Shown here piece after piece: positions 18,969 to 31,756 of a DNA stretch of 32,344 nt. The stretch comes from Deltaproteobacteria bacterium (GTDB taxonomy: Bacteria; Desulfobacterota; Desulfobulbia; Desulfobulbales; Desulfobulbaceae). Position 1 is the first letter of the stretch; every line of letters starts with the position of its first letter. The notes beneath the pieces were generated by a model, which saw only the letters and a program-made list of their open reading frames with translations, was not told the origin of the DNA and did no database searches. The DNA lies in NCBI GenBank assembly GCA_024280455.1, contig JAJRQC010000067.1:1-32344 (forward strand). The letters run 5' to 3'. The translations under genes were made by a program, and so were the position numbers.

Positions 18969-21900
18969 TTATGATGGCGACGCCGCGATCTGAAACAGGA
19001 GGTCGTCGATTTCTTCCTGATTATACTCCAGGTCCCGAAGCGTCTGCCGGTACTGCTGGAGTGTCTCTTTGGCCTTAAGCATTTTTCCGGAACGGATATA
19101 CAGGCCATAGAGCAGGGTAATCAGCTGATCATCCATTCGATTGATCTGCAATACCTTGTTGACAACCTCTATGGCCTCCTCGGTACAATCCGATTCCGCC
19201 AGGATGATACCGTACGTATGCCCGGTTTTGGCCAGGATCTGGAGCAGCTGGTCGTACAGATCCGCGGTCTCGCCGATGAAAAGATCACTCCCTGTTACCA
19301 TGTTGCTGTCCCATAAGTGCAATGCCCGGTAAAAGGCATTGCCGGCCTGCCAGAATTGCTCCGCCCGTGCATGGTTCAATCCTGCTCTGGCCAGCTTGGC
19401 AAAGCTGGTCCCGTCAATGCGGCAGTTGTCCAGGCAGAGGAAACCTTTCTGCATGCTCAGGTACTTTGTGACCGGGCAGGGCAGCACCTGAGCCAGAACT
19501 TTACGCAACCGCATAAGCAGAGTGTCCAGTTTGGCCCTTGCCTTTTCCGGTGAACTGTCCGGCCACAGAGTCAGCTGGATTTTTTCCTGACTGATCTTTT
19601 GATCCTTGCCGGCAAGGACCAGGGCCATGAGGCTCCGTTGCGCAGGGGTAAGCTTTTCGGCGGTGAGTATAGTCTTGCCTTCGATATTGAGGGCAAACGA
19701 ACCTAAGATGGTGATGTCGAGCAACGGATAGGCCGAACCCTTCTTGTCAAAAAAGATGCCTAGTCGTTTTCCGGCCAGCCTGTCAGCAAATTCAGGCAGG
19801 ATGCCTGCCTGGAAGGCTTCGCTCAGGAGCTCCCGCATGAAATCAGGTTCCCAACTCCAGAAATAGGTGTAGTCGTTTTTTTCCATGAAGTTGAGCCCGG
19901 CCTGCAGGTCATTGAGCATGGCTTCCCTGCAACCCTGCAGCCGGTATACCCACGCCCGCTGCAACAGGGCCGCCGCTGCCATGTAGTCCGACGGCAGACG
20001 TCCGGCCTGCCGCAGGGCCGTGGTCAGCAGTTCCTGGGCCTCATTATGGAGTCCTATTCGGGCCAGGGTCGCTCCATGGATAACTTTACAGAAGGTGTCG
20101 TAGAATGGTCCGCCTGCAACCTGGCGCAACTCGGCCGCCTCGGTGACGGCTTTTTCCGCGCCGTCTTTTTTCCCCTGCAGGGCCAGGATATACCCGTGCC
20201 ACTGCAGGAGTTGGCTGCGCATGTGAGGAGTTTCCGCGGTTGCCGAGATCTTGCCGCCCATCTCCAGTAGCCGTTCCGCTTTGTCATACTCGCCCGCTTC
20301 GACCAGACCTGCACCTGCCCAGATGTAGAGGTATGGGGCGGCAACGGTCTGTTCCACCACATGGTTGTCGATGGAGTTGCGCAACAGTTGCTGCTGGTGC
20401 TCCAGGTTGATGAAGTCGCCATGTTTGCTCAGGTAATTCAGATGGAGAACCCGCAGGGTCAGCTTGTTGGACATGCCCACTAACGGGTCATGGAGCAGGG
20501 CGTAGGAAGTTTCGATTTCTTGCAGGCAGCTCTTGTAGTTGCCGATCAGTGATTCGATATACCCGCAGGTGAAGCGGGTGGAGGCAATGCCGTTACGGAT
20601 ATCATTTCTGGTTGCCAGATCCCTGGCAATTGTTGCATAGGCCTTGGCCTGTTTCATCCGCGAGATAAAAAAGCAGTAACCCGCTCCCAGATTTCGGGCG
20701 ATCACTATCTGTGCATGCAGGGGGAGGTCGTTTTGGTTTTTGGAAAACAGTTCTTCGGTTCGGGGCAGCAGCAGAGCTCCGGTATGATACAGGCCGGAAA
20801 CAACAAAGTGGTAATAAATGAGATAGGAAAGAGCAAGGAGCTCGCCTGTTTCTTCTTCTGTGATGATGAATCTGTTGCGGGCAATTTCCAGTAGGGATTG
20901 TGTTTTTTTTGGGTGAAAGTCGGAGTAAAGCATACCGGTAAAGAGGGTCAGCCAGGCATAGCTGACGAGCTTGTCTTCCGGGATGGATTTGAGCAGGGTC
21001 AGCAGGGTGATGACTCTGTTCTTTGCCATCATGTGCAAACCTTCCCGGCGAAGAATGTCTTCCATGACCTGAAAGTTTTCCTCTTTACGATAACAGAGCA
21101 GAGCCTGCTCCAGGGCTCCTTTTTCCAGGTAATATGAGGCGGCAATGCTGTAAATGGATTTGATTTCATCCTTGCTCAGGTATTTGTTGGCCCGTTCCTG
21201 GAGAAATTACTGAAAGAGATGGTGAAAACGAAATACGGTCTGCTGCTCATCAAGCGGATAGATGAAAAAGTTATCAAGCATCAGGTCGGTCAGGATGGCA
21301 CCTGTATCTTCCCGGGCGGTTATTGTGGCGGCAAGGTCAACCGGGATTTCACTGAGCAGGGAAAGACGCATCAGGATGGTATGCAGATCCTCCGGGACGT
21401 GGCCGAGTATTTCATGACGGAAGTAGGTCAGAATCTGATCTGAGGAAAGGTCGGCGGGCAGCCGGGTTCCGGTATTTGATGATATGGAAGGCCTCTGATG
21501 CCTGTCCGCATGTGCGGCCAGCAGGATGCCCATGATCCATCCGCTGGTCTGCTGTCGAATCAGCTCGGCATCACTTCTGGATATCTGTTGTTTGAGTACA
21601 CGGCTGAAAAGCATTTCCACTTCCTGCAGGGACAGGCTGAGATCCTGGTTCTGCAGCATACAGACATCGGTCCCGTAACGGAGCGTTCTGGCGGTCAGGG
21701 ACAGCGCTTTGCGGCTGATCAGGATGAAATGCAGGCGTGGGGGAGAGGTGTCGATAATGTGGCTGAGCAGGTTGTTGAGCAACGGTGCCTGTTCACCAAG
21801 ATGGAGGTCATCAAAGACAATGTAGAAATCACCGGCAAGATGTCGGTCAAGATCGGTGAGGAGAATATTGGCGCAACGGGTTACATCCAGAGGGCCGATT

Positions 21901-22286
21901 TCACCCTGATGCATGATAAGGGCGAGCTGGGGTGACTTGAAACCCGGCAGTTTCTGCTGCAGGTTGTCCAGCAGGGCGGAAAGAAGCAGGACCGGGTCGG
22001 CATCTTCAGGCCCGATCTGGTACCAGGCAAAGCGGAGGTTGAAGTGGTGCAGAAACTGTGCCGCCAGGGTGGATTTTCCCTGGCCTGCCTGGGCTTCGAT
22101 GATAACGGCTTTTTTTGTGCAGGCGGTCTTGCCGAGCAGTTTGGTGATCAAGGATGAACGAAACAGACTTGATTCCGGGTCGACCTGGGGCGGATAAAAC
22201 TTGTTGGAAGAAATTTCCTGCTGCAGGTTAAGAGTTGGTTGCATGGCCAAGAATAGAGTGCTTTGGCAGGGTATCGGAAGAAGCAC
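18969..22286 (-). pseudogene. MalT-like STAND ATPase regulator with C-terminal SARP/BTAD module, split by an in-frame TAA
   Basis: Two open pieces (22286-21207 and 21065-18969) lie in one reading frame, separated by a single TAA at 21209-21207. The 47 codons between are open and continue the family sequence: Phe-His-His-Leu-Phe-Gln, stop, Phe-Leu-Gln-Glu-Arg. Together they would make 1105 residues. The N-terminal ATPase has Walker A (Ala-Gly-Gln-Gly-Lys-Ser-Thr, about 67-73) and Walker B (Phe-Tyr-Ile-Val-Phe-Asp-Asp, 154-160). A helical TPR-like region follows, then about residues 850-960 a winged-helix domain (Leu-Thr-Pro-Ala-Gln-Arg-Ser-Leu-Met) and a BTAD-type helical domain. The start is uncertain: GTG 22286 or ATG 22244, neither with a clear ribosome site. 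Only this one lesion is seen, so the break is recent, or a sequencing error. Targets are unknown; it lies just downstream of the secreted protein gene in the same direction, past a terminator. Confidence 0.82.
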
Positions 22287-22371: not shown

Positions 22372-22403
22372 GAAAAACCCGGAGGCCGGACCGGCCTCCG
22401 GGG
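22372..22403 (-). terminator. Rho-independent terminator of the secreted protein gene
   Basis: CCCGGAGGCCGG (22378-22389) and CCGGCCTCCGGG (22391-22402) form a perfect 12-bp inverted repeat. Read on the minus strand it is followed by TTTTTC, 26 bp past the stop codon. Confidence 0.9.
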
Positions 22404-22428: not shown

Positions 22429-25400
22429 TTATTCTGAAAGGATGGCGATAAAACCGGCGACTTCCGTTGTATGTGCAACTTTCGAGTCTTTGGACTGCTC
22501 TTCTTCCACCAGGACCTGAAGGCCTGCAGCTTCATTGCTGATGGTTCTCAAGGTCGAGGTGTCTCCGCCATCGGTGGTCTGCATGTCGGTGTAGAGCAGG
22601 GGCCTGGTGTTGAACCCGGCTGCGTAGCTCAGAGTTTTTGTCGCATGGGTCACGGTGTCTGCGCTGCGGCCGACTTCATATCGAAGACCGTTTTCACTGC
22701 CGCTGGAGGGCTCCCAGGCGATATAGGCCAGAGATTCGATCAGGTGGCTTTTAGTGTTTATCTCCTGTTCCTGGAGCTTGCATTCAAAGCCGTTGGTATT
22801 GATATTTCGGATTCTGGCCGTAACCGTGTCCGCCTCGTTGGAGCTGTCGACCGAGGTGATGACTACCGGAGTCTGCGAAAAGGTCTGGTTAAATGACCGG
22901 CTGTCATAGGTGCTGGTGGCGCTGGTTGAAAAAGTCCCGGCTTCGACCTGCGTTCCATCGGCCAGGGTATAATGTCCTGCTTCCATAACCAGGTAACTGA
23001 CCTGTTCCACGGTATGGGTACCATCAAGATATTCGTATTCCTGCAGGCGGAGGTCAAAGCCGGTAGCTGTTACATTGTCGATCCGAACCACGCATGGGTC
23101 ACCGCCGTTCTTACTGACCAGGCGGGCAATGATCACCGGGTTGGTGAAGGTGGTGGTGAAGTTCACCCTAACCCATGTGGAGTCCACATCAACCTCGCCA
23201 CCATCCATAATCGGAAAGCCCGGGACCGAGGCTGGGTCGGCGGGATCAAACCCGGCGGCAATTTCCGAACCATCAGCCATGCCGTCGTTATCGGAATCCT
23301 GGTCAAGGAGGTTGATCAGACCGTCATTGTCAAGGTCGGCATACCAGGAGCTTCCCTGTTCCTGCCAGTAGGTTATTTCGGCCCCATCATCAATGCCGTC
23401 ATGATCGGTGTCGGCAACCCCGGGATGGGTGTTGTAGATACTTTCTTCGTCGCTTGTAGAAAGAGTATCTCCGTCTGGATCGCCGGCCGGGTCATAGGCG
23501 GCAATGGAAATATATCCGCCCCGTTCCGTGGTATGGGCGAGCTCGGAATCCCGGGACTGCTCTTCACTGACAAACACGTCTATACCCTCAATCGTACTGG
23601 TGTTGATGCGGGGGGTCGCCGTGTCGCCGCCATCGGTGGTCTGCATTGCTGCAAGAACCATGGGCAGTTCGATGAACCTGCTGGTGTATTTGATCGGATA
23701 GGCATTGGCCGTAATCTGATCCCCGGTAACGGCAACTTCATACTGCATGTTGCCGAATCTACCGGTTGACGGCTCCCAGGCAAGGTAACAGGCGGTTTCC
23801 TCGGCATGGGTGGTGGCGTTTATTTCCTGCTCACGCATCATGAATTCAAAACCGTTGGTTGTAATATTTCTGACTCTTGTCGTAACGGCATCTGTTTCAT
23901 TGACCGTATTGACGGCGGTCATGACAACCGGAGGCGTCGACATGGGCTGGAGAAAGGAGAGTGCGGAAAAGGTTGATGCACCGGAGGTGGAAAAACAGCC
24001 GGCTTCAATCAGAGTCCCGTCATCCAGGGTGAAGGTTCCGGCTTCGGCCACCATTAAGGTGATGGTCTCAACGGGATGCTGACCATCCAGGCTGTCCCAT
24101 TCCTGGAAACGAAGTTCCAGGCCGTTGGATGTTACATTCTTGACCCGGATAACACCGGTTTCACTACTGGTGAAACTTGAGGCTCCGGCGATAACCACCG
24201 GGTTTGTAAAGGGGCTGTCATAACTGACCGCTTGCCAGTTGGAATCCACCTGCAGCTCATGGAGTTCAAAACGAAATCCTGTTGTGCTTTCAGTGAGTGT
24301 GATTGCAACTGTTGCAATGTTGGAGCCACTGCTGCCGTCATTTGCCGTAAAGGTGAAACTATCAGTGCCTGCAGCATCCTGACGGGCAGTATAGGTAAAG
24401 GTACCGTCGGCATTGATGCTGACATCCCCTTGGGCGGCAGCTGAAGCCACGGCAAAGGTCAGGTTGTCTCCATCCGGATCTGCTGCAGTCAACAGGCCGC
24501 TTGTCGTGCTTCCGGCAACAACCGAGAGGGACTGGTTGTCGGCTGTGGGTGTATCGTTGACCGGGTTGACGGTAATGGTGATAGTTGCAATGCTTGAATC
24601 TGCGGTTCCGTCGTTGACCTTAAAGGTAAAGGTGTCGGTTCCGTTTGCGTTTCCAGTTGGGGTGTAGGTGAATGTTCCATTTGCGTTGACGGTCACCGTA
24701 CCGCTGCCCGGCTGGGCAACCAGTGCGTAACTCAGAGTGTCCCCGTCAATATCAGAGGCGTTGAGCTGCCCACTGAGCGCGGTATCCTCATCCGTGGCAA
24801 GGCTTGCCGCCTGTGCGACCGGCGGATCATTAACCGGATTGACCGTGATGCTAATGGTTGCTGTGTTTGAGTCGGCGGTTCCATCACTAACCTTAAAGGT
24901 AAAGGTGTCGGTTCCGTTTGCGTTTCCAGTTGGGGTGTAGGTGAACGTTCGATTTGCGTTGACGGTCACTGTGCCGCTGCCCGGCTGGGCAACCAGTGCG
25001 TAATTCAGAGTATCGCCGTCAATGTCAGAGGCGTTGAGCTGTCCACTGAGCGCGGTATCCTCATCCGTGGCAAAGCTTGCCGTCTGTGCAACCGGCGGAT
25101 CGTTGAGCGGATTGACGGTGATGGTAATGGTTGCGGTGTTTGAAATACCGTTATCGTTGGTGGCCGTGAATGAAAAACTATCCCGGCCATTGAAATCGGG
25201 CAGCGGATGATAGGTGAACTGTCCGGTGGCATTCTCGATAGTCAGTGTTCCGTGGACAGGATTGGTTGGAACTGCATATTGCAGCGGCAGCCCGCTTGGA
25301 TTGTCTACTGAAAGAGCACCGGTAACTGGAGTATCTTCATTGCCGCTGACGGAGCTGTTGGCGGCGGCTGGAGGGGTAGTGCTGCTGTTGATGGTATAGG

Positions 25401-26334
25401 TTATAACCAGTTTGGGGCGGATATCGGTATTGCTGTTTTCCGACGCTGCAAACGTTCGGCCGGTTTCCGTTGCCATTTCACTCTGGCCATTGACCAGCAG
25501 GCCGTAATTGCTTTGCGGGTCGGCAACCCAGTCGCGAACCATGGAGGTGATCAGCCAGGAGCGATAGCCGTTGGTGTTGTCAAGGGTGGCGGTGTCTTCC
25601 GCCGGAGCGATATCGGCCAGTCCAAGCGGAATGTCGTTGTAGGTGGTTCCGGCAGGAACACTGTTCCAGGCAGTCCCTGCGGCTGCATTGGTGCCGGAAA
25701 CCTCACCGATTACCGGATTATGTCCGGTTATTTTATGGACCGTGTTGCTGTAGCTTGTTTCTCCCTGGGTAGCTGTCTGGTAGAGATAAAGTCGTGCTTC
25801 AACGATAGTAGCACTTGCAGGAATGGTACTGAGGTTGGTTTTCAGTATAATAGTATTGGCTACCTTATGCGGCGAGGGTGAAGACCAGGACCATGTAGAC
25901 AGGGTTTCGGAGCCGTCGAGAACCTGGTCGTTGATATTGGTGAAGGTATCGGCAAGGGTGCCGGGGTAATCGGCTCCCGGTGTATTGCCGAATATCTTGG
26001 TAATACTGTCAACTGCGGCGGGGACAGTATGAATAATTTCAATAGAATAATCACTTTCCAGGCCGTTACTGTCGTACGCTGTGGCGGCAAAGTAGTAGGT
26101 TTCCCCTTCGATAAGATTATCAACAGTGGCCTGGATTCTGCCGTTTACCGGGGCGGGCAGCCCGGCATCAATTACGTTTGTGTAATTACGAGACGAGATT
26201 CCGTAATAAACTTTGTAACCTGCCAGATTTGTTTCACTATTTGGCAGCCAGCTGAACGTAGCCTGTGCGGCCATGACTGGAACTGAAAGGGAACAAAAGA
26301 AAAAAAGACTGAGTAAAAAACGCTGCAGAAACAT
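22429..26334 (-). CDS. Large secreted multidomain protein: FN3, DNRLRE, four cadherin-like repeats, two lectin-like triplets
   Basis: A 1301-residue exported protein, probably a cell-surface or matrix adhesin. Order: signal peptide 1-23 (Val-Met-Ala-Ala-Gln); fibronectin-III-like 24-105; DNRLRE/CBM96-type region 110-315; four cadherin/VCBS-like repeats 325-410, 411-501, 502-592 and 593-682 with Asp-Glu-Asp-Thr and Asp-Xaa-Asp-Gly-Asp motifs; lectin-like module 685-946; Asp-rich thrombospondin-3-like Ca2+ segment 950-1035; second lectin-like module 1043-1299. Each module holds three subrepeats of about 90 residues marked by Pro-Val-Val, Arg-Xaa-Xaa-Asn and Gln-Glu, reminiscent of H-type lectin. 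AAGGAGG lies 6 bases before the ATG. No cell-wall anchor or type I secretion repeat is seen. Expression is expected to follow cyclic-di-GMP through the riboswitch upstream. Confidence 0.88.
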   Translation of the reverse strand: MFLQRFLLSLFFFCSLSVPVMAAQATFSWLPNSETNLAGYKVYYGISSRNYTNVIDAGLPAPVNGRIQATVDNLIEGETYYFAATAYDSNGLESDYSIEIIHTVPAAVDSITKIFGNTPGADYPGTLADTFTNINDQVLDGSETLSTWSWSSPSPHKVANTIILKTNLSTIPASATIVEARLYLYQTATQGETSYSNTVHKITGHNPVIGEVSGTNAAAGTAWNSVPAGTTYNDIPLGLADIAPAEDTATLDNTNGYRSWLITSMVRDWVADPQSNYGLLVNGQSEMATETGRTFAASENSNTDIRPKLVITYTINSSTTPPAAANSSVSGNEDTPVTGALSVDNPSGLPLQYAVPTNPVHGTLTIENATGQFTYHPLPDFNGRDSFSFTATNDNGISNTATITITVNPLNDPPVAQTASFATDEDTALSGQLNASDIDGDTLNYALVAQPGSGTVTVNANRTFTYTPTGNANGTDTFTFKVSDGTADSNTATISITVNPVNDPPVAQAASLATDEDTALSGQLNASDIDGDTLSYALVAQPGSGTVTVNANGTFTYTPTGNANGTDTFTFKVNDGTADSSIATITITVNPVNDTPTADNQSLSVVAGSTTSGLLTAADPDGDNLTFAVASAAAQGDVSINADGTFTYTARQDAAGTDSFTFTANDGSSGSNIATVAITLTESTTGFRFELHELQVDSNWQAVSYDSPFTNPVVIAGASSFTSSETGVIRVKNVTSNGLELRFQEWDSLDGQHPVETITLMVAEAGTFTLDDGTLIEAGCFSTSGASTFSALSFLQPMSTPPVVMTAVNTVNETDAVTTRVRNITTNGFEFMMREQEINATTHAEETACYLAWEPSTGRFGNMQYEVAVTGDQITANAYPIKYTSRFIELPMVLAAMQTTDGGDTATPRINTSTIEGIDVFVSEEQSRDSELAHTTERGGYISIAAYDPAGDPDGDTLSTSDEESIYNTHPGVADTDHDGIDDGAEITYWQEQGSSWYADLDNDGLINLLDQDSDNDGMADGSEIAAGFDPADPASVPGFPIMDGGEVDVDSTWVRVNFTTTFTNPVIIARLVSKNGGDPCVVRIDNVTATGFDLRLQEYEYLDGTHTVEQVSYLVMEAGHYTLADGTQVEAGTFSTSATSTYDSRSFNQTFSQTPVVITSVDSSNEADTVTARIRNINTNGFECKLQEQEINTKSHLIESLAYIAWEPSSGSENGLRYEVGRSADTVTHATKTLSYAAGFNTRPLLYTDMQTTDGGDTSTLRTISNEAAGLQVLVEEEQSKDSKVAHTTEVAGFIAILSE
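24559..25104 (-). repeat. Tandem 273-bp near-identical coding repeat
   Basis: Units 24832-25104 and 24559-24831 encode cadherin-like repeats 2 and 3 of the secreted protein. The two 91-residue units differ at only a handful of positions and are also very similar at DNA level, unlike repeats 1 and 4. This points to recent duplication or gene conversion. Confidence 0.85.
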
Positions 26335-26386
26335 GGTTCGCCTCCTTCGGCGGCTCCGCTGCCATATCTCTGCGTACTGCGGGTCT

Positions 26387-26444
26387 GGTGGTTGCCGATA
26401 ACCGATCGGTTATGGCCGGGCACGGGTGTCCGGTTCCGGCAACC
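26387..26444 (-). promoter_or_regulatory. Likely riboswitch expression platform (alternative pairing)
   Basis: On the minus strand, GGTTGCCG at the 3' end of the aptamer (26444-26437) is exactly complementary to CGGCAACC downstream (26397-26390). Between them lie CCGGACAC/GTGCCCGG and the palindrome ATAACCGATCGGTTAT. The downstream element copies the aptamer's own 5' GGCAAACC, so the two would compete for GGTTGCC. No T run follows, so control is more likely by translation or Rho. A further GCCGCC-GAA-GGAGGC hairpin could mask the ribosome site. Confidence 0.6.
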
Positions 26445-26527
26445 CCGCTACCTTATTACAGTAACACTGAAACGTAGGCCGGTGGCTTTGCGTCCCGTTT
26501 TTTCAAACGGTTTGCCTTTATCGGGAT
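26436..26527 (-). ncRNA. Cyclic-di-GMP-I (GEMM-I) riboswitch aptamer
   Basis: On the minus strand the aptamer reads GGCAAACC, a stem CCGTTT-GAAA-AAACGG with its GNRA tetraloop, GGACGCAAAGCC, CCGGCCTA, a variable second stem and GGTAGCGGGGTTGCC. All are diagnostic GEMM-I blocks in the right order and spacing. The ligand-contact base equivalent to G20 of the Vc2 aptamer is G (complement of C26516) and the base equivalent to C92 is kept. This predicts cyclic-di-GMP rather than the cGAMP specificity linked to A20 variants in Geobacter relatives. It lies about 100 nt before the secreted protein's start. Confidence 0.94.
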
Positions 26528-28344: not shown

Positions 28345-29136
28345 TCATTTACGCACTTCCCGTGGCGGTCTGCGCAGGTAGCGTTCGGTAAAAATGTTAT
28401 CCTTAAGGCCGATATCATATTTAATGGACGTGAATTTGGACAGGGTTGAACTGCCGCTGTCAAGATCGGTTGCTTTGGAAACCGTTACCGTCGGATGGCC
28501 GTCGATCTCCCGCACTTCCAAAGCCTCAACGATTCGGTACTTTATATTATTTTTATCCAGATATTCGGTCTTCATCGGGATGAAGGTGTTTTTATCTATC
28601 CAGACGGTGTAGCTGGAAAATTCAACCTCGCCGGGATTTTTCGGGATATTTTTTACAACATAATACTCATCATCGGTTGCAACAAGTTCATGGGTGTCGG
28701 CATTGACACCTCGACCGGAGACATCTTCATAGAGATAATTTGAACCGACAAAGGAGGTTCGCTTATCGGCGGCTGCAATACGTTTAACCAGATCCAGGGC
28801 CGGCAGGTACAGCCAGCGGTCATCATCGCGGTCCAGATGCTTGTGGACCATGAACACCATTTTGCGGACATCGCTGGGTTTCTTGAAGTACACGTAAAAG
28901 AGCTGCTCTCCTCCCACTTTTTTATTTTTTCGCAAGAGGATAAACCGGCGCAGACGTTCTCGGCCCTGGCTGTCGGTGATCGTCATTGTGACCTCGGCCC
29001 GTCCGTCATCGCCTGCATCATACGCAGCCAGATTGGCCTTGTTGACGATTTTCTCGGCATTCAACTCTTCAGCCCCGGCCTGAACCGACAGGGCCAGCAG
29101 GGGGAGCAGACCAAAAATAAGGATCTTCCATTTCAT
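28345..29136 (-). CDS. LolA-like outer-membrane lipoprotein-sorting protein
   Basis: A 263-residue periplasmic protein with a signal peptide (cleaved near Val-Gln-Ala-Gly-Ala, about 19-23). The body is the PF17131-type LolA-like fold: Met-Thr-Ile-Thr-Asp-Ser-Gln-Gly, Phe-Lys-Lys-Pro-Ser-Asp-Val-Arg, Trp-Leu-Tyr-Leu-Pro-Ala-Leu-Asp and Tyr-Glu-Asp are family hallmarks. It overlaps the exporter gene's stop by four bases (ATGA), and AAAGGA lies 8 bases before the ATG. Such proteins travel with COG1033-type RND exporters and are thought to carry a hydrophobic substrate through the periplasm; the cargo is not known here. Confidence 0.9.
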   Translation of the reverse strand: MKWKILIFGLLPLLALSVQAGAEELNAEKIVNKANLAAYDAGDDGRAEVTMTITDSQGRERLRRFILLRKNKKVGGEQLFYVYFKKPSDVRKMVFMVHKHLDRDDDRWLYLPALDLVKRIAAADKRTSFVGSNYLYEDVSGRGVNADTHELVATDDEYYVVKNIPKNPGEVEFSSYTVWIDKNTFIPMKTEYLDKNNIKYRIVEALEVREIDGHPTVTVSKATDLDSGSSTLSKFTSIKYDIGLKDNIFTERYLRRPPREVRK

Positions 29137-31756
29137 GATAATGTTCCTTTACGTTCTTTTTTAAAGAGTTGTTTCTGCATGACCGTCAGCAGGGCCGGCA
29201 GGATCCACAGGGTTGCCAGGCCCGAGTAGAGCATGATTACAGCCAGAAAAACACCCACGGTCTGGTAGGGGATAAGGGGTGCAAAGAGCAGCGGCGTAAA
29301 ACCGATCGAAATGACGATGGTATTTCGGGCAATGGCCCGGGCCGGTTCCTCAAACATTTCCTGTACGCTCTTGCTCCAGTCGCCAAGGCGGGCCATGGTC
29401 GCTCGGGAACGCTGGAGAAAATGGATGGCAAAGTCTACTGCCAGGCCAAGGGTCAGGGAAGAGAGCACCGCCACCGGCATGTCGTAGTCTTTGCCGATCA
29501 GCCCGATTACCCCGTAAATAATGCCGATGGTAAAGGTCAACGGGATCATGGCCAGCAGGCCCCAGAGAGGAGAGCGGAACAGGATGGCCATCATAATAAA
29601 GACAACCACGAAGCTGGACAGGAACGATTTAAGCATGCCGGTGACCATCTTGTTCTGCCAGGCCACATTGATATAGGTCAATCCGGCCCACTCCGCCTCC
29701 AGTTGTATGGGCGGTGGTGTGTCGGTCAGATACTTATCGACATCGGCAATAACCCGTTCCATGTCCATGTTGTCACCGCTTTCAGCTGCAGCCACAGGTT
29801 GGCTCGGGTGTAATCGGGGGTCACCAGATGCCAGAGATCGTCGGGTTTATGACTGTTCTGGTAGGACATCAGGGTCTGAGCCACACCGTTTATCGTTTTG
29901 GGAATGGTAAAATGATCGGGATCGCTTTCAAAAAGCTCCTGGTGAACCTTTTGCACTACATCGGCAATGGAGTTGCTTTTTCCTACGTCGCCCTGCCCGT
30001 CAAGGTACTTCTGCAGACCGATAATATAGTTCAGGATATCGGGTCGTTTGAAGATTTGTTTCTGATTGCGCACCCGGTCGAGGGCGTCCAGGGCCAGTGA
30101 CCAGTCATCGTAGCCCGCGTCATCCTCGGGGGCGAGATTGTCGATCTCTTTCTGCCAGGAAAGGCTGAGTCGTTGAAACAGTTTTTCTGCAGAGCCGCCT
30201 TCGGCCATTGCTTCGGAGAGTTCGGACTGGACCTTCTCCCGGACAACCGGCGACTCTTTCAGGCTTTTCTCGAGTGTATCACTCAGCCATCTGGCCGACT
30301 CGGCGGCGGTTTTCTCCGGTGCATTGCTGGAAAGCACCAGATAGGCCTCATAGGTGCCGCCGAAATGCTCGTTCAGGACCCGGTCGGCAATACGGATCTC
30401 ATGGGATTTGTGAAACCATTTGACCGGATTGTCGTTGACCTGGATCATCAGTATGCCGACGACGCCGATGGCCATGATCAGCAGGTTGAACCCTATGACC
30501 CACCATGGCCTGGATACGGTCGTTCTGCCGATCCATCGCAGGTGGCGGTTGATGAGAGATTTGTCTGAGGCCTTGTCCTGCTGTTTACCGGCTCCGAAAT
30601 TTTTAAGACTGTCCTCCTTCATCAGCATGATATAGGCCGGGATAAACAGGACGGTCAGCAGCCAGGCGAGCATGATGCCGAAGGCCACAAAGAGACCAAA
30701 GGCCTGAACCGGAGGAATCGGGGTCAGGGCCAGGGAGGCAAATCCGGCAGATGAGGTGAGTGAGGTAAACAGCATCGGTTTAAACAGGTGGTGCATGACC
30801 TGCTCGATGGTTTTGCGCCGGTCCTTTGTCTTCTGGTATTCATCAAAAAATTCGGAGAGAATATGGATGGAGTCCACCACCGCAATCGGCATGATGAAAA
30901 TGGGGATCATGGAACTCATGATGTGCAGGGTGTTGCCGGTGCCGATCAGCAGGCCCATGGTGGAGATGACCGTGCAGACGGCAATAATCATCGGCGAGAT
31001 GATCAGTTGAAATTTTTTGAAAAAAACCAGCATTAAAAGGAAAATCACCAGCATAGCCAGGGGCGCGGATATGGCCATCTGGACAAACATCTCCTTGCCG
31101 AAGGTGTCTTCGGCAACCGGCAGGCCGGTGATATAAAACTGCTCGTCTCCGGGGCCAAATTCTGCGATTTTTTCCTTGAGCTCTTTGCTGACCTGGTGGG
31201 CAAAATCTTTCTGGCTGATCGGCAGATAGATGGCAAGAGCCCGTCCGTCTTCAGAGACCATGGTGCCCTTGAGCAGTGGGTTTGACAGGGCCTTGTCCCG
31301 GATTTTCAGGGCCTCTTCCCGGCTGGTCGGCGGTTCCTTCATCAGCCATTGAAACTTGACCTGGCCGAGTCCGGCCTGTTCAATGGTGTCGACATTGTCC
31401 GGGGCAATAATATCACGGGCAATGACCCTGCGTTCCGGATTCTTCGGATCAGCCAGGGTTGCGGCAAATTTGCTGAGCTCGTAGATTTTTTTCAGGCTGC
31501 CGGGGTTAAAGACGCCGTCTCTATTTTTTTCATTGACCACCCCCAGTACGACAACATCATGCAGATTGAATTCCTTTTTTGTCTGGTCATGAAAGACTCG
31601 AACAAGCTCATCTTTTGAGAGCATGTTCTCCGGATCGGTATCCACATGTACCCGGACGATCAATGTGCCCAGGGCCAGGGTCATGAGCACCATCAGGGCG
31701 GTCAACAGTCCGGGCCTGTTCATTGAAAATTGTATCATTGTACGATCAAACTGCAT
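29133..31756 (-). pseudogene. COG1033/MMPL-type RND exporter with a one-base frameshift
   Basis: An RND exporter of about 874 residues when joined. The first piece (31756-29726) has a start helix, a periplasmic domain, an SSD-type helix bundle (Pro-Ile-Ala-Val-Val-Asp-Ser-Ile-His-Ile) and most of the second periplasmic domain. It runs out of frame at 29780-29782, where the minus strand reads CTGAAAGCGGTGAC. One more A gives Leu-Lys-Ser-Gly-Asp-Asn-Met-Asp-Met, which joins smoothly with the second piece (to 29133) holding the last bundle (Gly-Leu-Ala-Val-Asp-Phe-Ala-Ile-His-Phe). The rest is intact and the downstream genes are coupled. The lesion in an A run may be a recent mutation, a phase-variable site or a sequencing error. 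ACGGAG precedes the start. Confidence 0.85.

Follow-up and report, generated by a model that had tools for sequence, protein, structure and literature searches.

The window, that is, the whole stretch of 32,344 nucleotides analysed here, carries on its minus strand a c-di-GMP-I (GEMM-I) aptamer, a long gene for a predicted exported protein whose ATG at 26334 lies about 100 nt downstream of the aptamer, and a hairpin past the gene that resembles an intrinsic terminator. Because of this hairpin at its 3' side, the gene is probably monocistronic, with a unit made up of riboswitch, gene, and terminator. The features of the locus are as follows, with nucleotide positions counted along the window and residues along the protein:

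26434..26525, minus strand: c-di-GMP-I (GEMM-I) aptamer with canonical pocket bases G20/A47/C92 and a GAAA tetraloop on P2 (cmscan and RF01051)
22429..26334, minus strand: open reading frame of the 1301-residue exported protein (ORF and Pfam)
Residues 19-100 of the protein: fn3 (Pfam, 24.7 against 25 bits, just under the cut-off)
Residues 163-311 of the protein: Disaggr_repeat region (Pfam, 24.9 against 33.9 bits, under the cut-off)
Residues about 320-685 of the protein: cadherin-like/Big_9 domains (Pfam)
23503..24279, minus strand: lectin module A (residues 686-944), three H-type-lectin-like repeats
22432..23214, minus strand: lectin module B (residues 1041-1301), three H-type-lectin-like repeats
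22378..22402, minus strand: intrinsic-terminator-like hairpin past the gene, 11 bp of which 10 are G-C, with a T tail

In the whole window, cmscan returned one above-threshold Rfam match, a full-length match to RF03167 (c-di-GMP-I-GGC) at 26434-26525 on the minus strand with 72.5 bits (E 1.5e-15), above the family's gathering score of 59; cmscan drops one lower-scoring match of the same clan. The lack of a hit to RF01051, the c-di-GMP-I riboswitch family of clan CL00126, had been named beforehand as a refutation of the initial annotation; a search of the window's own genome with this model gave 82.7 bits at this site against a gathering score of 35. The GEMM-I aptamer with all diagnostic blocks that the initial annotation had described is thus confirmed as complete; the span given there, 26334-26527, comprises the aptamer plus the linker, with 26334 being the A of the ATG. 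In the cmscan alignment, the GNRA tetraloop capping P2 sits between the two P2 arms. Judged by its sequence, this is a real c-di-GMP-I riboswitch before the gene of a lectin/cadherin-type exported protein. In the own genome, which spans 4.15 Mb in 173 contigs, three aptamers score above the RF01051 cut-off, the window aptamer highest, and a fourth, weak one is matched by RF03167 (28 bits). Elsewhere in this genome, the aptamer L003 (G000:C110) precedes a secreted-looking protein, and the weak aptamer L004 (G000:C73) precedes another ORF, the product of which presumably resembles a relative of the formylglycine-generating enzyme.

ORF length and Pfam matches agree with the earlier description of the gene product as an exported protein of 1301 residues with cadherin-like and lectin-like parts, and its signal peptide, MFLQRFLLSLFFFCSLSVPVMAAQA, was judged by eye. 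The Pfam models above cut-off are Big_9, Cadherin_4, and Cadherin_5 (four stretches each), Cadherin_3, a PKD model, and H_lectin (PF09458), the last in a single stretch at residues 1147-1191 (58.6 bits against 24, E 7e-16). We take residues 163-311 to be DNRLRE-like, and an Asp-rich linker, presumably thrombospondin-3-like, lies between the two C-terminal H-type-lectin modules. The protein is probably located at the surface or in the matrix, and would carry two heads of three lectin repeats each on a stalk of cadherin and fn3 domains, with which it may bind glycans in biofilm or on particles.

The three repeats of each lectin module can be aligned with one another in sequence, and the two-module part measures 615 or 616 residues in all seven sequences compared, including that of the window. 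AlphaFold2 models were obtained with a pLDDT of 90.9 and pTM of 0.90 for module A and with 92.8 and 0.91, respectively, for module B. Four of the six modelled repeats (B1, B2, B3, and A2) directly match H-type lectins in structure. Repeat 1 of module B matches Helix pomatia agglutinin 2ccv (Z 9.3, 2.1 A over 75 residues), with which the phage tailspike domain 4ru4 ties (Z 9.8); repeat 2 matches 4q56 of the Helix agglutinins (Z 5.0, 2.1 A over 80), repeat 3 matches discoidin I 2w94 (Z 5.8, 2.0 A over 82), and repeat 2 of module A matches pyocin-fibre tips at Z about 6 and then the same H-type lectins at Z about 5, where a Z of 5-6 can mean a mere common arrangement. Repeats 1 and 3 of module A gave no direct structural match to H-type lectins and are linked to them through sequence alignment with the four matching repeats. 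A Foldseek search with module B returned no match at E <= 0.001, and the best PDB match of the module sequence profile was an endolysin (E 0.025), with the Helix agglutinins at E 0.85-0.91. Whole modules match the C-terminal domain of PCSK9 weakly (Z 2-5); we take this domain to be a three-part single-chain ring, and the match, as far as the models go, fits a pseudo-trimer module. Phage tailspike and pyocin-fibre tips match the repeats as well as lectins do, and the predicted fold speaks for a carbohydrate-facing head rather than for one given sugar. The modelled fold of single repeats is like that of Helix pomatia agglutinin, the C-terminal domain of discoidin I/II, and SLL-2 (Pfam H_lectin). 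These lectins have one such domain per chain and reach their assembly by oligomerization; unlike them, the window protein fuses three repeats per module, twice.

The pairing of aptamer and lectin gene recurs in related bacteria. RF01051 is present in 39 of 57 relatives, and long-P3 aptamers of the window type precede orthologs in G003, G011, G027, and G008, the last being Desulfogranum mediterraneum. Relatives of the lectin module are encoded at 46 loci in the genome collection, 38 of which were counted after exclusion of eight that are open at the 5' side. With a covariance model built from 32 aptamers of the order, strong aptamers were detected at 10 of the 16 Desulfobacterota-type loci (12 aptamers) versus none of the 22 others, and three weak matches (E 0.13-0.39; L188, L151) were set aside. 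The 16 loci are those labelled Desulfo- or Deltaproteobacteria plus L153, labelled Gracilibacteria; among the 38, L158 and L159, both lacking an aptamer, are masked or broken toward the 5' end, and in L152, L156, and L160, which have one, a gap or frame break lies between the aptamer and the lectin part. All 12 aptamers precede a lectin-type gene or an adjacent secreted-protein gene. This recurrence in relatives argues that the riboswitch belongs to the window gene. Among named organisms, the lectin module has its nearest relatives in Desulfobulbus, Desulfobulbaceae, and Desulfogranum mediterraneum, in line with the deltaproteobacterial host proposed earlier. At L152 (4401-8282) and L160 (5997-8234), adjoining secreted-protein genes each have their own c-di-GMP-I aptamer upstream. 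The Candidatus Gracilibacteria contig at L153 carries a Desulfobacterota-type aptamer and lectin gene, and its label is probably a binning error.

Across the order, we compared 115 aptamers from 36 genomes, consisting of the best 114 of the RF01051 matches listed plus one from the own genome, with weaker matches left out. A downstream ORF of at least 60 aa was available for 104 of the 115, chosen mechanically and in many cases cut by contig ends. Proteins resembling parts of the window protein follow 9 of the 17 long aptamers (at least 84 nt) with a downstream ORF, the window included, versus 3 of the 87 short ones; a Fisher test on all 18 long and 97 short aptamers gave 1.2e-6, uncorrected for kinship. 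Among the 100 ORFs of at least 80 aa that were scanned with Pfam, cadherin-like/Big_9 domains occur in 10, cytochrome c7 in 8, fn3 in 6, and H_lectin in 2.

Between the aptamer and the gene, the window leader contains the following elements:

26437..26444, minus strand: aptamer 3' strand GGUUGCCG, which includes C92 and some of the P1 3' strand and would pair with the anti-aptamer
26390..26397, minus strand: anti-aptamer CGGCAACC, complementary to the aptamer 3' strand over 8 bp without mismatch
26362..26373, minus strand: GCAGAGAUAUGG, 5' arm of a 12-bp start-codon-occluding stem (folding)
26349..26354, minus strand: GCCGCC, a possible anti-Shine-Dalgarno (folding)
26341..26345, minus strand: Shine-Dalgarno GGAGG (sequence)
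26325..26336, minus strand: CCAUGUUUCUGC, 3' arm of the 12-bp stem, with the AUG inside (folding)

In the free fold of the window leader, the aptamer 3' strand pairs with the downstream anti-aptamer, and the AUG lies inside the 12-bp stem. The cost of opening the region from the Shine-Dalgarno to the AUG is 11.9 kcal/mol, compared with 6.7 (sd 1.4) for linker shuffles, none of 100 being as high. The 8-bp anti-aptamer match is equalled by 7 of 300 linker shuffles. As a general rule, however, complementarity between the aptamer end (last 16 bases) and the linker was rejected, since it is clear in the window only; in the other 14 leaders, 25 to 300 of 300 shuffles are as good. An anti-Shine-Dalgarno hairpin was rejected for the window, where the Shine-Dalgarno is not hidden beyond chance (66 of 100 shuffles do as well). 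A platform based on intrinsic transcription termination was likewise rejected, as no terminator-like hairpin was found on the gene's strand in the window leader. In 8 of the 13 leaders with a linker, all eight from relatives in the genome collection, the Shine-Dalgarno is hidden beyond chance (at most 5 of 100 shuffles as good); the exceptions are the window, G003, G011, and the two L160 leaders. This count omits G027 and G008, where a linker is absent: the Shine-Dalgarno directly follows the aptamer, with the ATG 11 nt on. In an alignment of eight linkers, the Shine-Dalgarno sequences are out of register. Taken together, the lack of a terminator in the leader, the start-codon stem, the 8-bp anti-aptamer, and the hidden or aptamer-abutting Shine-Dalgarno sequences in relatives point to translational rather than transcriptional control.

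Overall, we hold it to be quite probable that the locus has a monocistronic gene for an exported lectin-like protein whose leader contains a canonical class I riboswitch, and that this riboswitch acts on translation initiation, with the sign left aside. In the proposed mechanism, binding of c-di-GMP would lock GGUUGCCG into the aptamer and prevent its pairing with the anti-aptamer, upon which the downstream structure around the AUG and the Shine-Dalgarno would be altered. The start-site cost of the window at equilibrium differs little with binding (10.5 in the free model, 11.9 in the bound one), and therefore the coupling of the aptamer to the start site stays a proposal.

As to the sign, we lean modestly toward a switch that the ligand turns ON, by analogy with adhesin-like targets, whose expression c-di-GMP usually induces. 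The same riboswitch may instead be turned OFF by its ligand, with the bound aptamer sparing the start-site hairpin that the free aptamer strand disrupts. This reading seems to us the less probable of the two signs, though a substantial contender; it differs from the best explanation in sign, and the probability we give it overlaps with that of the explanation that leaves the sign aside. When each free leader was compared with its own downstream part alone, against aptamer shuffles, the free-minus-bound opening cost fell under the shuffle mean in 12 of 15 leaders, as OFF would have it, and shuffles reached as low in 0/60 cases for L152, 3/60 each for G011 and L157, and 6/60 for the window. By contrast, the values for G027, L160a, and L163 exceed the shuffle mean, and ViennaRNA takes no account of tertiary contacts or co-transcriptional folding. 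The folding energies lean to OFF but are not decisive given that the leaders are mutually related. The precedent of Vc1, the class I riboswitch before gbpA of Vibrio cholerae, also stands against OFF, as this adhesin-like target is positively regulated by c-di-GMP according to the accessible portion of the report (PMC4744006).

The initial annotation had read a G at the G20-equivalent and predicted c-di-GMP over cGAMP as the ligand. In Vc2 numbering, the cmscan alignment gives G20, A47, and C92 for the window aptamer, A48 can also be read from its sequence, and these four are named as key recognition bases in the available part of PMC3764141. With G20, A47, and C92 in place, the call therefore stands as a prediction, and c-di-GMP is the best ligand prediction for the window aptamer. 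Bases 20/47/92 are G/A/C in 111 of the 115 order aptamers, A/A/C in two, and G/A/U in two. A20 is the mark of cGAMP (GEMM-Ib) riboswitches. That a single pocket base marks c-AMP-GMP variants is stated in the accessible text of PMC9481103. The A20 variants said earlier to occur in such hosts are thus found here, one of the two preceding an ortholog of the window gene: G20 is present in 11 of the 12 locus aptamers, and the exception is the A20 aptamer of D. mediterraneum (L154:4917-5009; G008:C4:299941-300033), which is abutted by the Shine-Dalgarno.

This A20 ortholog lends some weight to the view that the window aptamer senses 3',3'-cGAMP in its own host, as does one of the 22 GGDEF matches in the own genome, a REC-GGDEF protein with the Hypr serine (L225/L243, where L243 is G000:C116:25900-27600). 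Its signature reads GHLNGS with a GGDEF motif, and the nearby Asn place is occupied by Val. Over the GGDEF part alone, 6d9m, which we take to be the Hypr enzyme GacA, is the best solved chain for L243 with 98 bits, followed by the next such chain with 82, among 60 matches listed. The available text of PMC6456294 describes a lysozyme fusion consistent with this identity; it further treats that serine as the signature of Hypr enzymes and names Asn339 as a contact. Given this one Hypr-serine GGDEF protein, cGAMP may be present in the cell, and the G20 prediction is therefore worth testing. Nevertheless, the window aptamer has G20 rather than A20, and the Hypr serine is absent from the other 21 of the 22 matches, so we regard cGAMP sensing by the window aptamer as improbable. 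In D. mediterraneum itself, none of the 33 GGDEF matches read (of 34, with C11:86674 left out) has a Hypr serine at the signature place, and hence Hypr-made cGAMP is unsupported there.

It is still less probable that the window aptamer is Rfam's c-di-GMP-I-GGC variant with altered ligand behaviour, for which speaks that cmscan ranks RF03167 as the best clan member. We infer from the RF03167 consensus line that "GGC" names positions 20/47/92. That consensus has G at the A47 place, where the window has A, and the variant was rejected on this base; moreover, a G at position 47 occurs in none of the 115 aptamers, and RF01051 gives the higher score (82.7 vs 72.5 bits). The least probable reading is that the aptamer has decayed and no longer regulates the gene, as the short P1 of the window might suggest, because P2, P3, and the bases of the pocket are preserved, a near-identical aptamer exists in G003, and the aptamer recurs in other genera.

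GbpA is a chitin/GlcNAc binder, unlike the window protein, which is of the H-type-lectin/cadherin type. The preferred translational c-di-GMP riboswitch resembles Vc1-gbpA in that a class I aptamer occupies the leader of a gene for a secreted colonisation protein and no terminator is apparent in this leader; unlike in Vc1-gbpA, where the accessible part of PMC4744006 gives no anti-Shine-Dalgarno, Shine-Dalgarno hairpins are predicted in several relatives and a start-codon stem in the window. The Cd1 (c-di-GMP, OFF) and pilM (cGAMP, ON) riboswitches share the aptamer class, and the mutually exclusive aptamer and terminator folds of pilM compare with the proposed anti-aptamer and aptamer of the window; unlike the window leader with no terminator-like site, both act on transcription via terminators, according to the available portion of PMC9262584. 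Similarly, the CD2831 adhesin of Clostridioides difficile is a surface colonisation factor under the control of a c-di-GMP riboswitch, although, unlike the window protein, it is a Gram-positive sortase substrate (PMC6447587, in its accessible part). In the open-access literature searched, we found no paper combining Desulfobulb, riboswitch, and c-di-GMP, and the present riboswitch-lectin pairing was not found in titles or abstract beginnings of the papers listed; the two mentions of "riboswitch" in PMC11224092 are one reference on C. difficile pili. The finding is of a known kind and an expected type; what is new is the family of the target protein, the lineage, and the one ortholog with A20. 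It offers a testable c-di-GMP link to a lectin-like exported protein in largely uncultured sulfur-metabolising bacteria of sediments and vents.

More speculatively, Desulfobulbales might share one orthologous surface lectin of six H-type-lectin repeats, arranged as two single-chain pseudo-trimers, which would be wired through its leader mostly to c-di-GMP (G20) but in Desulfogranum mediterraneum to cGAMP (A20), and whose expression platform would have been rebuilt, being either a linker of 100 nt or a Shine-Dalgarno that abuts the aptamer; we consider this whole picture doubtful at present. These orthologs show two leader architectures and, in one case, a change to A20 upstream of one and the same gene, and thereby offer a natural experiment on the evolution of riboswitch specificity and expression platforms.

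The order MMPL, riboswitch-lectin, AAA/TPR regulator, and MscS channel is common to the window and G011 (L246, G011:C41:18000-37000), and was not seen within 19 kb around the G008 ortholog. In the window, the MMPL-family gene (29133-31756, minus strand) is broken in two by a frame change when compared with its G011 homolog, reflecting either assembly error or decay, and the AAA/TPR/BTAD regulator-like gene (18969-22286, minus strand) has an in-frame stop where G011 encodes one protein of 1091 aa.
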